DNA of 44,973 bases from Acidobacteriota bacterium (GTDB taxonomy: Bacteria > Acidobacteriota > Thermoanaerobaculia > Multivoradales > Multivoraceae). The notes below the pieces were generated by a model. It was not told the origin of the DNA, searched no databases, and was given only the letters and a program-made list of their open reading frames with translations. The stretch is taken from contig JAGWAG010000024.1 in NCBI GenBank assembly GCA_021296535.1, positions 1-44,973 of the forward strand. Reading direction: 5' to 3'. Shown here piece after piece: positions 17,610-23,704 of the stretch; position 1 is the first letter of the stretch, and every line of letters starts with the position of its first letter. The translations under genes and the position numbers were made by a program.

Positions 17610-18185
17610 TCAGGAGTCGGCGGGTCGCGCCTTGAGCACGCGCCGCCGCAGGAGCCGGGCACTGACGACGGCGACCAGGAGCAGGACGGCGGCCAGGGCG
17701 AACACGGGCATCGTGATCGCCAGCAGTGACAGGCCGGCCGCCGATCCGGCCTCTCCGGTGGATACGACGGGGTTGCCGATGCCCGCCGTCATCATCGTCG
17801 AGGCGCCGCGCAGCAGCGTCGTCCCCGTCTGGACCACCGCCGCCGCCGTGCCGCCCGCCACCGCGGCCAGCGCCCAACCAACGAGCGGCGTCGCGGTCTC
17901 GATGTTCGCCGCCGCGACGACGATCCCCGCGGTGACGGCCGCCGGCATCGCGGCCACGTCGAGAATGTTGTCGAGCCAGGGGATGTAGTAAGCGCCGACT
18001 TCACAAACCGCCGCGACCCCCAGGGCGAGGAGGGCTGGAGTCCCCGCCATCCATTCGAAGCCCTCGGCCAGGTCGAGGGCGCCGGCACGGGCCGACACGC
18101 CCATGACCAGGACGGGCAGAAAGACACGGAACCCGCACGCCGCCGCCAGACCGACCCCCAGACCCACGCTGAGCAGTATCTCCAT
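17610..18185 (-). CDS. DUF4126 family membrane protein
   Basis: 191 aa; GLAAACGFRVFLPVLVMGVSARAG...YYIPWLDNILDVAAMPAAVTAGIV...ASTMMTAGIGNPVVSTGE. Confidence 0.85.
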   Translation of the reverse strand: MEILLSVGLGVGLAAACGFRVFLPVLVMGVSARAGALDLAEGFEWMAGTPALLALGVAAVCEVGAYYIPWLDNILDVAAMPAAVTAGIVVAAANIETATPLVGWALAAVAGGTAAAVVQTGTTLLRGASTMMTAGIGNPVVSTGEAGSAAGLSLLAITMPVFALAAVLLLVAVVSARLLRRRVLKARPADS

Positions 18186-18205: not shown

Positions 18206-19879
18206 CTACGTCCCCCGGCGGCGCCAGGTTTCCGTGAGCCAGCGGTGGAGCGCCCGCGCCTCGGGAACCCCGAGCAGGTGCGCCGCCACCAGATAGGTCA
18301 CCGCGAAGCCAAGCACGGGGACCAGACCGGCGATCCACGTCGGCCCTCGCCGCCCAGGGGACGAGGCACAGGACCGCGAGGGGCAGATGCCGCCCCCAGG
18401 CCCTCCACGGCCTCACCAATGCACTCCGGCGCCGCAGTCCGCGAAGCAGAAGAGCCAGTTCGAACCAGCTGCCGACCGCAGAGCCCAGAGCCAGCCCTAC
18501 GGCGCCCAGACGCAGGCCATCCGGCGCCTCCGCGACCGCTGGCCCCAACCAGCCGGGCAACCGCACGTCTGCCACGGGGACGCGATCGAGAATCGTCATC
18601 AGCCCCGCACCGAGTCCTGCCGCGATCACAAGGCGTACCAAGACGATCCGTGCAGGCCTCCGCGTATCGCCGAACGAAAAGAACACGCTCTGCAGCAGCC
18701 GCGAGGCACTCGACGCCAGCAGGCCCAACGAGTACGCAGCCAGCACCAGGAACACGAGCCAGTTGTCCTCGAGATCGAAGGAACCGCGTCGATACACGGC
18801 GCCGACGATCCCCATGCCCAATGCCAGGTAGCCAACCAGCGTCGGCGCGCCGCAGCCCGTTCGGCGCGGTACGCCGCCGCCTTCGACCGCTCCTCCTCGT
18901 TCCCGTCGAGCCGCGACAACTCCGGCAGTTCGACGGCCGCGACCGAAACGCCGAACAGCGAGATGGGTAGCAGGTACAACCGCTGGCTCCAGTTCATAAC
19001 GGCAACCGCTCCCCCGGCGAGGAGAGAGGCCAGAAGGCCGTCGACCCAGGCCCCGAGCTGACCGGCGCCTCGGCCGGCGATCGCTGGCCAGAGCCGCCTC
19101 AGGGTCTTCTGCACGCCCGGTGCCCGCAGGCTGAACGATGGGCGCAGCCCACGCGTTACGCGCAACACCGACGGCAACTGCACCGCGAACTGCAACAAAC
19201 CGCCGACCAGGCCGCCCCAGCAGACGGCGAGCACGAGCGACTCGATCCTCTCGGCATGGCCATCGAAGGTCCGCGCCGCAACGAACCAGACGGCGCCGAT
19301 CACGCTTGCATTCCAGAAACACGGCGCGAGGTACGGGAGCAGGAAGCGCCGATGGCTGTTCAAGATCCCGAGGCACCAGGCCGACAGCGTGATCACCGCC
19401 GCCATCGGGAAGCAGATGCGGACCGCCGTCGTGGTCAGGGCCAGCCGGTCGACCGTCGCCGTCCCTGCCGCCACGGCCTCGGCGTCACCAGCGAAGCCGG
19501 CGAAGAACAGCCTGACCAGCCATGGGGCCAGAAGCACGCCGAGGAGACTGAGAGCCGCCATGACCGCAAACAACAGTCCGAAGACGGCGCCCGCCAGACC
19601 GCCGGCATCGCGCCGCCGGCCCTCAGCCACCAACCGGCTGTAGACCGGAATGAAGGACGCAGAAAGCGCCTGGTCTCCGAGCAGGTTCTGGAGCGCGTTA
19701 GGTGCGCGGAACGCTGCGGTGACGACATCCCCCAGGGCGCTGACTCCCGCGAGACTTGCGATCACGGCCTCTCGGACCAGTCCCAGCACGCGACTGGCCA
19801 ACATGCCCGCTCCCACGCGCACCGCGCCGCCGGACGCGCGCGGCGTCCCTTCACTGCCGGCGGGCGCCGCCTGCGTCAA
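18206..19879 (-). pseudogene. murJ: Lipid II flippase MurJ, reading frame broken at two places (~18865 and ~18350)
   Basis: N-terminal ORF 18626..19879: MLASRVLGLVREAVIASLAGVSALGDVVTAAFRAPNALQNLLGDQALSASFIPVYSRL. Middle in another frame: APTLVGYLALGMGIVGAVYRRGSFDLEDNWLVFLVLAAYSLGLLASSASRLLQSVFFSFGDTRRPARIV. C-terminus in a third: PTWIAGLVPVLGFAVTYLVAAHLLGVPEARALHRWLTETWRRRGT*. Could be sequencing/assembly error rather than a true pseudogene. Confidence 0.88.
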
Positions 19880-21411
19880 TCCGAGAGGTTGACGACGACC
19901 CGGTCGCCCCGTCGCTCGACCGTCGCGGCGATGTCGGAGGCCGTGAGATCGAGCACGACGTGCAGGTTCCTGGTCGCCCCGCGGCCGTGAACTCCGGTGC
20001 GAACGCCGCGCAGCCTGGGGCCCCTGACCGCGCTCGCGTCGTAGCCCTGCCGCACCCCGATCAACCGGACGACCAATCGCGGCGGCGATTCGAGCGGCAT
20101 GATGTGGTGTCGCTGGAAGGGAGCGTTGCCGACGATCTCGATCACGGTCCGGTCACCCGCCGTCGACGCGGTGATCGAACGCAGAGCGGTCGCGTTGGCA
20201 GGCGGCGGTGCCGGTGGCGCCGGCGGTCGGCGAGCGGCGGCGGGCTCGGCGGCAGGCGCCGGCCTGGTCTCGACCTCCACGGCGGCCGGCACCGGCGCGG
20301 GCCGCTCGGCCGCAACCGGCCCGGCGTCCTGTGTCGCGGCCACACGAACGGGTTCATCCGCTTCGCCCTCGGCTGGAGCCTCCGGGTCGGCGGCCGGTTC
20401 CTCGATGGCCACCGGCAACGGACTTGCCGTCGACGACTCCGCCGCGCCCGCCGGAGGCGTCTCGGCGCCCGCCCGGGGCGTCGAGATCTCGAAGCTGGGA
20501 GCTTCAGCCGGCGCAGCCTCTTCGGCCGGGGCGCCACCCAGTCCGACCAGGTTCATCAGCGGTCCCCGGAAAGCAATCAGGGCAACGAGAAGTACGGCCC
20601 CGCCGACCGCCGGCCACAGCCAGGGACGAGCCGTCGACTCCGGCTTCATCCAGTCCTCGTCGTCTTTCGCGAGGTCGCCGAACAGTTCCGCATGGGTGGG
20701 CTCGACTTCACCGGCCCCGGCCGCGTCTTCCCCGGCCAGGGGTTGATCGATCGACGGCGAGTCGTCACCGACGGGTCCGCGGGCCGGTTCGGGGGGCGAT
20801 TCGGCAGGCTCCTCCGCCGGAACGGGTTCCGCGTCGACGATCTCCGCCGGTTCGACCGCGTCCGTCGCTTCCGCCTCGACGATCTCCACCGGTTCGATCG
20901 CATCGGGCGCTTGTGTCGGGGCCTCATCCTCGACCGCTTCGGCCCCGGCCTCGGCTTCGACGTCACGGGTTGCCGCTTCCTGGACCTCGACCTCCTCCGC
21001 TTCGGGCGCGGCAGCCGGCGGAATCACGTCGCTCTCCCCCTGCGGCTCCGAGAACAGCAACGCCAGGCGCTCCTCGCCCGGGGGCTCGACGCGGCTGAAC
21101 CGCATCCCCATCCCGGCGGGCTGATCGGCGCCGCCGGCCTCGGGACGTACCCAGACCACGGTCGCCTCGCCCTCGACGTCTGCCGGCTCATCGTCCGACC
21201 CGAGCTGCAGCACGAAGTGCGCGGAAGTGCCGACCGGCATCGGCGTCGGCGTCGACACGAACATGCCGCCGGTCGCGATGTCCCGCGTCAAACCGGAGAG
21301 TTCGCCGTCCTGCCCGGACGCAGTGAGACGAACGACCACTTCGCGCAGCAAACGGCGCGACTCGCGGAAGCGGAAACTCTGACTGGCCGGTGACATAGGG
21401 CAAATCCCCAA
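19876..21411 (-). CDS. PilZ domain - long acidic Ala/Pro/Glu linker - single TM - AMIN domain protein
   Basis: 511 aa; N-term RRLLREVVVRL...LSGLTRDIATGGMFVSTPTPMPVGTSAHFVLQLG...EGEATVVWVRPEAGGADQPAGMGMRF (PilZ); TM PWLWPAVGGAVLLVALIAF; C-term ALRSITASTAGDRTVIEIVGNAPFQRHHIMPLESPPRLVVRLIGVRQGYDASAVRG...VVLDLTASDIAATVERRGDRVVVNLSD (AMIN). Confidence 0.8.
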   Translation of the reverse strand: MGICPMSPASQSFRFRESRRLLREVVVRLTASGQDGELSGLTRDIATGGMFVSTPTPMPVGTSAHFVLQLGSDDEPADVEGEATVVWVRPEAGGADQPAGMGMRFSRVEPPGEERLALLFSEPQGESDVIPPAAAPEAEEVEVQEAATRDVEAEAGAEAVEDEAPTQAPDAIEPVEIVEAEATDAVEPAEIVDAEPVPAEEPAESPPEPARGPVGDDSPSIDQPLAGEDAAGAGEVEPTHAELFGDLAKDDEDWMKPESTARPWLWPAVGGAVLLVALIAFRGPLMNLVGLGGAPAEEAAPAEAPSFEISTPRAGAETPPAGAAESSTASPLPVAIEEPAADPEAPAEGEADEPVRVAATQDAGPVAAERPAPVPAAVEVETRPAPAAEPAAARRPPAPPAPPPANATALRSITASTAGDRTVIEIVGNAPFQRHHIMPLESPPRLVVRLIGVRQGYDASAVRGPRLRGVRTGVHGRGATRNLHVVLDLTASDIAATVERRGDRVVVNLSD

Positions 21412-21595: not shown

Positions 21596-22910
21596 CTAGG
21601 TCGAGGACCCCTTGCGCGCGACGAGCAGGGCCATCTCGAGGGCCTGCTCGTAGTTCAGCCTCGGGTCGACCTGCGAGCGGTAGGACCGCCGGAGCCCCTG
21701 CTCGTCGAGACCCCGGGCACCGCCGACACACTCCGTCACGTCTTCGCCGGTCAGTTCGAAATGGACACCGCCAAGGATCGTGCCGTTCGCCGCATGGAGA
21801 TCGAAAGCCTGCTCGAGTTCCGACAGGATGTCGCTGAACGCCCTGGTCTTCATCCCTTCCCGGGTGCCCTTCGTGTTGCCGTGCATCGGATCGCAAATCC
21901 AGAGCACGGGCTTGCCGGTCGCGGACACGGCCCGCAGGATCGGAGGCAACTCCTCTCCGATCCTCTCCGCGCCACAGCGGTGGATGAGCGAGAGCCGGCC
22001 CTCTTCGCCATCGGGATTCAGCACGTCGACGAGGTGGGCGATGTCGGCCGCCTTCATCCCGGTCCCCACCTTCATGCCGAGGGGATTGCGAATGCCGCGG
22101 GCGTACTCGATGTGAGCCGATCCCCGGTACGCGGTGCGGAGACCAACCCAGGGCAGGTGGGTCGAGAGGTTGTACCAGCCCTCCCGTCGCGGCACCGTCC
22201 GGGTCTGCGCCTGCTCATACACCAGGTGCAAGGCCTCGTGACTCGTGTAGAAGTCGACGCGGTCGATCTGCCCTACGTCGACGCCGGAGAGCGTCTCCAT
22301 GAACTTGAGTGACTCACCGATCGACTCGACCCGGCGCTGGTACTCGGCCGCGTTCCGTGAGTGGCTGACGAAGTCCAGATTCCAGTACTCGGGATGGTGG
22401 AGATCGGCGAAGCCGCCATCGATCAGACCGCGGATGAAGTTCAGGGTCAGAGCGGAGCGCTGGTAGCCGCGGAGGAGATTCAGCGGATCCGGTTCCCTCG
22501 CTTCCGAGATCGCCCCGGTACGAGGGCAGGGTCTCTCCGGCCCGGGTCTCCATGTCCGCCGAGCGGGGCTTCGCGTACTGGCCGGCGAACCGTCCGACGC
22601 GGGTCACCCGCTTCTTCAGGCTGTGGGTCAGCACCAGGCTCATCTGCAGGAGGATCTTGAGCTTCGCGGTGATCGAGTCGGACGTGCACTCGGCGAAGCT
22701 CTCGGCGCAGTCGCCCCCCTGGAGAACGAAGCGCTCGCCCCGCGCCGCAGAGGCCAACTGTCCCCTCAGGGTCTCGACCTCCCAGGAGGTCACCAGTGGC
22801 GGCAGGACGGCGAGCCGGGCCGCAACGGCCTCCACCGCCTCCGGATCGCCGTAGGTGGGCTGCTGGCGCACGTCGGCGCTCTGCCAGGAAGTCGGGCTCC
22901 AAGTGTCCAT
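21596..22910 (-). pseudogene. Class II (plant-type) DAHP synthase, frame broken near 22506-22519
   Basis: N-term frame: FVLQGGDCAESFAECTSDSITAKLKILLQMSLVLTHSLKKRVTRVGRFAGQYAKPRSADMETRAGETLPSYRGD. C-term frame: AISEAREPDPLNLLRGYQRSALTLNFIRGLIDGGFADLHHPEYWNLDFVSHSRNAAEYQRRVESIGESLKFMETLSG...DFYTSHEALHLVYEQ...CDPMHGNTKGTREG...GGVHFELTGEDVTECVGGA. Confidence 0.9.
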
Positions 22911-22930
22911 AAAGGGCGACGGAGTCTACT

Positions 22931-23704
22931 TCAACCGTCCTCGATCTGGAGGTACCGCCGCAGCCAGCGGGTGCCCAGGTAGAAGGGCAGCGTGTCCACG
23001 GCCGCCGCCGTGAACTTGAACACGTACGCCGTGCCGATGAACACCCACAACTGAGGCCAGATCGGCTCACCGCCCTCGACCGGGATGGCGCCGGCGGCGA
23101 AGTGGGTGATCGTGATCACGGAGAACGAGTCGACGAACTGGCTGACCACCGTCGAGCCGTTGTTGCGCAGCCACAGGTGGCGGCCCTTCGTGAGTCGCTT
23201 CCAGAAGTGGAACACGTAGACGTCGCACAACTGGGCGCTCAGGTAGGCGATCATCGAGGCCGCGATCACTCCCAGGGTCATCGTCCGGATCTCGAAGAAG
23301 ATCGGCAACCGTCCGTCGGGCCCTGGCACCGGCGAGTCGAAACCCGGCAGGGCGCCGCCCAGCCACAGCACGAGGGCGAGCCAGATGTTGACGAGGAAGC
23401 CGACCCAGACGAGGAAGTTGGCCCGCTTGCGCCCGTAGATCTCGGAAATGAAGTCGGTACAGAGGAACGTCAACGGATACGGCAGCACGCCGATCGCCAG
23501 CGGCATCGGAATTCGCATGCCGAACACGGTGAAGCTCAGATCGAGGAAGCGGGTCACTCCCAGGATGTTGAGCATCGTCATCGAGCCCAGAAACAGTCCC
23601 GCGAGAATGAGGAACACGCGCTCACGGCGCGCGTGCAGCACGCTCGCCTCGATCGGGTGAAGGTCAGCCGGGCGCTGCTCCGGCGAGCGAGCGGCTTCGC
23701 TCAC
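22931..23704 (-). CDS. Queuosine precursor transporter YhhQ/VUT family
   Basis: GTG start (VSEAARSPEQRP); ISEIYGRKRANFLVWVGFLVNI, DVYVFHFWKRLTKGRHLWLRNNGSTVVSQFVDSFSVITITHF. Confidence 0.9.
   Translation of the reverse strand: MSEAARSPEQRPADLHPIEASVLHARRERVFLILAGLFLGSMTMLNILGVTRFLDLSFTVFGMRIPMPLAIGVLPYPLTFLCTDFISEIYGRKRANFLVWVGFLVNIWLALVLWLGGALPGFDSPVPGPDGRLPIFFEIRTMTLGVIAASMIAYLSAQLCDVYVFHFWKRLTKGRHLWLRNNGSTVVSQFVDSFSVITITHFAAGAIPVEGGEPIWPQLWVFIGTAYVFKFTAAAVDTLPFYLGTRWLRRYLQIEDG

Follow-up and report, generated by a model that had tools for sequence, protein, structure and literature searches.

The design in which a cytoplasmic PilZ domain is joined through one transmembrane (TM) helix to a periplasmic domain, as predicted for the protein described here, is known from Pseudomonas Alg44. 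The periplasmic part of Alg44 is membrane-fusion-protein-like, serves alginate export, and contains no AMIN domain. In Myxococcus xanthus, PilQ is directed to new poles by its AMIN domains, which bind peptidoglycan at the septum and the poles (PMC10653833). Another M. xanthus protein, PixB, has two PilZ domains that both lack the Ser of the second c-di-GMP motif; it retains RxxxR and was found to bind c-di-GMP in vitro, the binding not being assigned to either of the two domains (PMC8316039). In the same organism, a burst of c-di-GMP has been proposed to localise an unknown landmark, possibly a peptidoglycan-binding protein (PMC11255338, discussion).

We analysed a stretch of 44,973 nucleotides (the window) from a 3.76 Mb draft genome of an Acidobacteriota bacterium, in which an earlier sequence-only reading had proposed a PilZ-linker-TM-AMIN fusion and had known of no characterised protein of this kind. 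In the open-licence papers searched, none was found either: no PilZ-AMIN protein was described, nor was a gene pair of an amidase and a MamK-like actin. Our strongest claim is thus that the domains are known, while their combination and gene neighbourhood are new, i.e., undescribed in the literature searched.

Gene Model and Evidence of a Maintained Protein

The PilZ-TM-AMIN gene lies on the minus strand, which the earlier reading had not named. The open reading frame reported there (19876-21411, 511 aa) is real and intact, but its TTG at 21411 results from mechanical extension. The ATG at 21394-21396 (MSPASQSFRFRESRR...) is instead the start common to 21/21 aligned orthologues, so the gene runs from the ATG at 21396 to the TGA at 19876 and encodes 506 aa. 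The features of the locus are collected in Table 1.

Table 1. Features of the PilZ-TM-AMIN locus and its neighbours (window coordinates).
Feature	Coordinates	Strand	Remarks
Class-II DAHP synthase	21596..23091	(-)	Upstream neighbour, conserved in family
PilZ-TM-AMIN gene	19876..21396	(-)	506 aa; conserved ATG at 21394-21396
PilZ domain, residues ~1-118	21043..21396	(-)	Pfam; NCBIfam TIGR02266 below cut-off; AF2 fold
R-box RxxxR = RESRR, residues 11-15	21352..21366	(-)	Intact, invariant in genus
D-I-A-T-G-G, residues 39-44	21265..21282	(-)	Canonical [D/N]xSxxG with Ser to Ala
Acidic Ala/Glu/Pro linker 1, ~140 aa	20623..21042	(-)	Before TM, variable length
Single TM helix	20554..20616	(-)	Conserved juxtamembrane motif before helix (ELFGDLA..DDxDWM..ES)
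Ala/Pro/Glu linker 2, ~116 aa	20200..20547	(-)	After TM, presumed periplasmic
AMIN domain, residues 404-506	19879..20187	(-)	Genus profile, AF2, Foldseek
TTGA overlap	19876..19879	(-)	TGA stop of PilZ-TM-AMIN gene and proposed TTG start of murJ
murJ (lipid II flippase)	18209..19879	(-)	Downstream of and overlapping PilZ-TM-AMIN gene
DUF4126 protein	17610..18185	(-)	Downstream of murJ

The opposite strand also carries a long open reading frame (545 aa). Rough pairwise estimates of dN/dS (NG86) against two more distant members of the genus were 0.19 for the PilZ codons, 0.24-0.29 for those of AMIN, and higher (0.25-0.5) for the linkers. The low values in the two domains (~0.19-0.29) therefore point to a maintained protein and not to a chance frame of a GC-rich genome; judged by sequence comparison, constrained codons together with a domain order held in nine families are beyond chance. 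When the gene was compared with its L004 counterpart, dS was ~0.08 from PilZ to the TM segment, whereas linker 2 and AMIN gave values of 0.68 and 0.33, respectively. This patchy divergence suggests recombination inside the gene.

Domain Architecture and Predicted Topology

A Pfam search with the whole protein matched PF07238 at 1.3e-11 over residues ~10-110 (45.2 bits, cut-off 22.5). The closest NCBIfam model was TIGR02266 (1.1e-15), the 57.6 bits being below its curated cut-off of 68.7. An AF2 model of this part (pLDDT 73, with a disordered N-terminus) had PilZ structures, several of them in complex with c-di-GMP, as best structural matches, and by sequence, the closest solved proteins were type IV fimbriae PilZ proteins of Xanthomonas. 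On profile and model evidence, the identity of the PilZ domain, which the sequence-only reading had called PilZ-like, is certain.

The C-terminal AMIN domain called by that reading was not detected by Pfam in the whole window protein, and single orthologue domains of the genus did not reach the curated cut-off of PF11741 (0.011-0.06); order-level members reached up to 3.4e-5. The call is carried by other evidence. A genus profile (A1; 14 members, last ~105 residues) matched the AMIN domain of M. xanthus PilQ (3jc8) at 3.3e-5, the match spanning residues 207-289. Modelled with AF2, the domain reached a pLDDT of 86.5, and in Foldseek, the only PDB matches below 1e-3 were E. coli AmiC (4BIN, TMq 0.75) and PilQ (3jc8, TMq 0.76). 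An order-wide profile (A2), unlike A1, gave no significant PDB match, so the assignment is drawn from A1, from individual order-level members, and from structure; on these grounds we regard AMIN as established by profile and predicted fold. A Phage-tail_3 match in 8/14 of the AMIN domains (best 0.0022) was rejected because the fold is that of AMIN. No Amidase_3 domain was found by Pfam in the PilZ-TM-AMIN protein.

Between the two domains, one hydrophobic segment stands out at residues ~263-286, with a 19-residue Kyte-Doolittle score of 1.99 (next best elsewhere, 0.82), in agreement with the single TM helix claimed earlier. The single ~200-aa linker of that claim proved to be two Ala/Pro/Glu-rich linkers, ~140 aa before and ~116 aa after the helix, whose lengths differ greatly among orthologues. 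Because the protein has one TM helix and lacks a hydrophobic segment at its N-terminus, the PilZ domain is assigned to the inside by elimination. The expected topology, PilZ in the cytoplasm and AMIN in the periplasm, is thereby supported at the level of prediction. Overall, the proposed PilZ-linker-TM-AMIN order is upheld by domain calls made both by profile and by structure.

Ligand Motifs and c-di-GMP Inventory of the Genus

The second ligand motif of the window protein had been correctly read as DIATGG, a departure from [D/N]xSxxG. Throughout the genus it is DIA[TIV]GG, the Ala being fixed in 21/21 members. The Ser is kept by sister genera g2 (DISMEG) and g3 (DLSMEG) and by most of the order; since g2 and g3 retain DxSxxG, the Ala is particular to the window's genus. 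Several members of families f3 and f13 have lost the R-box. As judged from the motif, the Ser-to-Ala change could weaken c-di-GMP binding, and the earlier warning that ligand binding may be altered or lost was a fair caution. It does not, however, imply loss: PixB, without that Ser, still binds c-di-GMP.

The genus was surveyed for PilZ, GGDEF, and EAL domains. Each of the 21 genomes had one PilZ match, at a threshold that may miss divergent PilZ domains, and this match was the PilZ-TM-AMIN gene. Each also had exactly one GGDEF protein, with the GGDEF motif intact in both proteins read (from the window's genome and G018). No EAL domain was found in the 21 genomes searched. Receptors of c-di-GMP of other kinds may also be present.

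Distribution

The PilZ-TM-AMIN architecture was found in 21/21 genomes of the genus and in each of the order's nine families, and outside the order in class families f10 and f13. The genus AMIN profile had matches in 61/72 genomes of the order, and with order-level profiles, nearly every non-PilQ open reading frame that matched AMIN and had enough sequence carried an N-terminal PilZ domain. The profile survey covered Acidobacteriota; beyond the class, matches at 1e-12 were PilQ-sized open reading frames only (297 genomes of the phylum, with up to 15 first-look candidates per genome scored). A scan of all GTDB genomes with the window protein as query, which finds close relatives only, gave named relatives that are Acidobacteriota MAGs, labelled mostly Thermoanaerobaculia and Holophagales. 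At three loci of family f4 (L085, L095, and L101), two tandem PilZ-TM-AMIN genes adjoin an FAD-linked oxidase gene.

The murJ Neighbourhood in the Window's Family

The gene order DAHP synthase, PilZ-AMIN, murJ, DUF4126, TPR was found in every genus member that had data, as well as in g2 and g3, murJ being adjacent in 21/21 genus members and in both sister genera. The TTGA overlap with the murJ start, as first read, is correct and conserved: the junction GAT-TGA was identical in 17/17 junctions printed (the window and 16 genus members). It uses GAT, though these genes prefer GAC, and this agrees with a constrained TTG start for murJ. In the window, the murJ sequence falls into three pieces in two frames, with breaks near 18848-18881 and near 18347, and is one open reading frame in relatives; the split may reflect either assembly or sequencing errors or a broken gene. 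The class-II DAHP synthase is likewise split here, over three frames, and whole in relatives, a sign of indel errors in the contig.

From the adjacency, the sequence-only reading had suggested a link with peptidoglycan assembly. The adjacency is fixed in the window's family, whereas no murJ adjoined the gene at the loci of other families, which have an amidase and a MamK-like actin as recurrent neighbours; murJ linkage was rejected as a general rule. In a tree of PilZ plus AMIN, the murJ-linked copies form one clade (94/94), which lies inside a supported group with actin-linked copies of families f9, f2, and f10 (96/85), the backbone of the tree being weakly supported. Thus, the murJ linkage can be one rearrangement in one lineage.

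Linkage to an Amidase and a MamK-Like Actin

In families f2, f5, f7, f8, f9, and f10, the PilZ-TM-AMIN gene adjoins, on the same strand, genes for an Amidase_3 protein and a MamK-like actin (15 genomes). Two further genomes (L169 and L170) show the same linkage with the contig end inside the PilZ gene, and at L092 the three genes overlap or abut. These neighbours of ~340 aa had at one stage been taken for PilT/PilU, which was wrong. The linked amidase is an N-acetylmuramoyl-L-alanine amidase that is membrane-anchored: intact copies have one N-terminal hydrophobic segment each. Pfam found Amidase_3 only, with AMIN absent, in 5/5 amidases scanned. The linked actin scored 330-393 bits against NF040964 (MamK), far over MreB (~80 bits); the MamK cut-off of 400 bits was reached in 0/71 genomes of the order (best 392.9).

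The amidase-actin pair is class-wide: wherever an examined MamK-like locus had usable flanks, within the class or beyond it, the two genes were adjacent. In f13, the MamK-like actin was not found in the three genomes searched, although PilZ-AMIN was present; in f12, f14, and f16, the actin and the amidase were present, and no PilZ-AMIN match was found. These patterns indicate that the parts are separable, and the f13 members without a MamK-like match that the actin is not required in every case. At L207 (f17), a separate AMIN open reading frame follows the actin gene.

In the window's family, the PilZ-TM-AMIN gene is not beside the amidase-actin pair. The window's genome has such a pair on contig C92 (L151, 2860-5439), apart from the PilZ-AMIN gene. 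The same contig encodes an HlyD-type membrane-fusion protein whose C-terminal domain is AMIN (L003), and contig C152 (L002, 923-1768) encodes a 281-aa exported-looking protein in which AMIN is at the N-terminus and the tail is rich in Ala and Pro. A DUF4126 gene precedes the amidase-actin pair at three loci of family f6 (L159, L160, and L167); in the window's family, it is the second gene downstream of PilZ-AMIN, with murJ in between. Judging from gene order, DUF4126 is a possible further part of the module.

Discussion

The link from cytoplasmic signalling to the wall, which was the central idea of the sequence-only reading, is supported by the domains, by the architecture, and by the amidase and actin neighbours. 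These neighbours strengthen the link to the wall and change its focus, with wall cleavage and positioning in place of lipid II flipping. The protein probably carries an internal signal to a wall-remodelling site. More specifically, we favour, tentatively, a single-pass inner-membrane adaptor of the c-di-GMP type that places or gates wall remodelling. The N-terminal PilZ domain would read c-di-GMP, or a c-di-GMP-dependent partner, in the cytoplasm, and the C-terminal AMIN domain, on a long flexible tether in the periplasm, would hold peptidoglycan at particular sites (the septum or the poles), where remodelling would then be placed or gated, with control presumed to run in this direction. In families with the amidase-actin pair, an amidase without an AMIN domain of its own would receive the AMIN function in trans from the adaptor and would cut the wall where the adaptor sits; through putative contacts with the actin or the amidase, the adaptor would join filament, signal, and amidase. 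By analogy, the arrangement resembles an AmiC divided between two proteins, the amidase lacking AMIN and the AMIN adaptor, and equipped with a signalling input. A wider form of this proposal is possible, though we hold it with more doubt: a c-di-GMP-gated wall-remodelling module of Acidobacteriota that consists of the cytoplasmic MamK-like actin, the membrane-anchored amidase, and the PilZ-TM-AMIN adaptor giving AMIN in trans, the adaptor of the genus being the sole PilZ output of a one-GGDEF circuit.

The fixed Ala raises another explanation, that the PilZ domain of the genus no longer binds c-di-GMP and serves protein-protein interaction, which would make the protein a constitutive scaffold between cytoplasm and wall. 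The loss of the Ser in all 21 genus members fits such a scaffold, as do order members that lack the RxxxR box altogether with the domain order still kept, and 3dsg (XC1028), a nearest solved Xanthomonas PilZ protein, is described as having trivial c-di-GMP binding. We nevertheless consider it rather unlikely, given that the RxxxR box is unbroken and identical throughout the genus, that PixB shows binding without the same Ser (PMC8316039), and that, at the threshold used, PilZ-TM-AMIN is the one PilZ protein of a genus that keeps exactly one intact GGDEF.

Two other roles would tie the protein to different machinery. As a co-translated partner of MurJ, it would couple lipid II flipping to signalling; the conserved overlap and the unbroken adjacency in the genus, g2, and g3 speak for this, but loci of other families show no murJ beside the gene, and the single murJ-linked clade, possibly one rearrangement, makes the role quite improbable. 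Very improbable is a localiser of a type IV pilus or type II secretion machine, a role suggested by AMIN in PilQ and by PilZ with PilB/FimX. Both domains are known from type IV pili, the polar placement of M. xanthus PilQ uses AMIN (PMC10653833), and each genus genome has one full-length T2SSE ATPase. Against it, most genus members lack a second, PilT-like ATPase, AMIN searches of the window's genome returned no PilQ-sized secretin, and no pilus gene was recognised beside the gene in the loci studied (~20 neighbours annotated with Pfam or NCBIfam).

If the adaptor role is correct, the PilZ-TM-AMIN protein would be a plausible form, in one polypeptide, of the c-di-GMP-placed landmark proposed for M. 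xanthus. Through the linkage to the amidase and the actin, a single small group of genes would connect a second messenger with the cytoskeleton and with hydrolysis of the wall; the linkage also suggests that MamK-like actins have a role outside magnetosomes.

Comparison with Known Systems

Each of the known systems shares a part of the arrangement described here. E. coli AmiC, whose AMIN fold is among the best structural matches and which works with a peptidoglycan amidase, is an exported protein that unites AMIN and Amidase_3; in the present case, AMIN belongs to a membrane protein whose PilZ domain is predicted to be cytoplasmic, and the linked amidases, without AMIN, are encoded by a separate gene. 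The AMIN domain of M. xanthus PilQ is matched both by profile and by fold, but in the present protein the secretin is absent, the protein is a predicted single-pass inner-membrane one, and PilZ is added. TIGR02266, the PilZ-like paralogue domain of Myxococcus and the best NCBIfam match to the PilZ part, is a domain model without TM or AMIN, and the window's PilZ domain falls under its cut-off. PixB is alike in keeping RxxxR, in missing the second-motif Ser, and in binding c-di-GMP in vitro (PMC8316039); it differs in having two PilZ domains and an acetyltransferase domain, and in the absence of AMIN. The PilZ domain of Alg44 is among the fold matches to the window's PilZ model. Finally, the linked actin resembles the magnetosome actin MamK far more than it does MreB, but it stays below the MamK cut-off in all 71 genomes of the order and is linked to an amidase.
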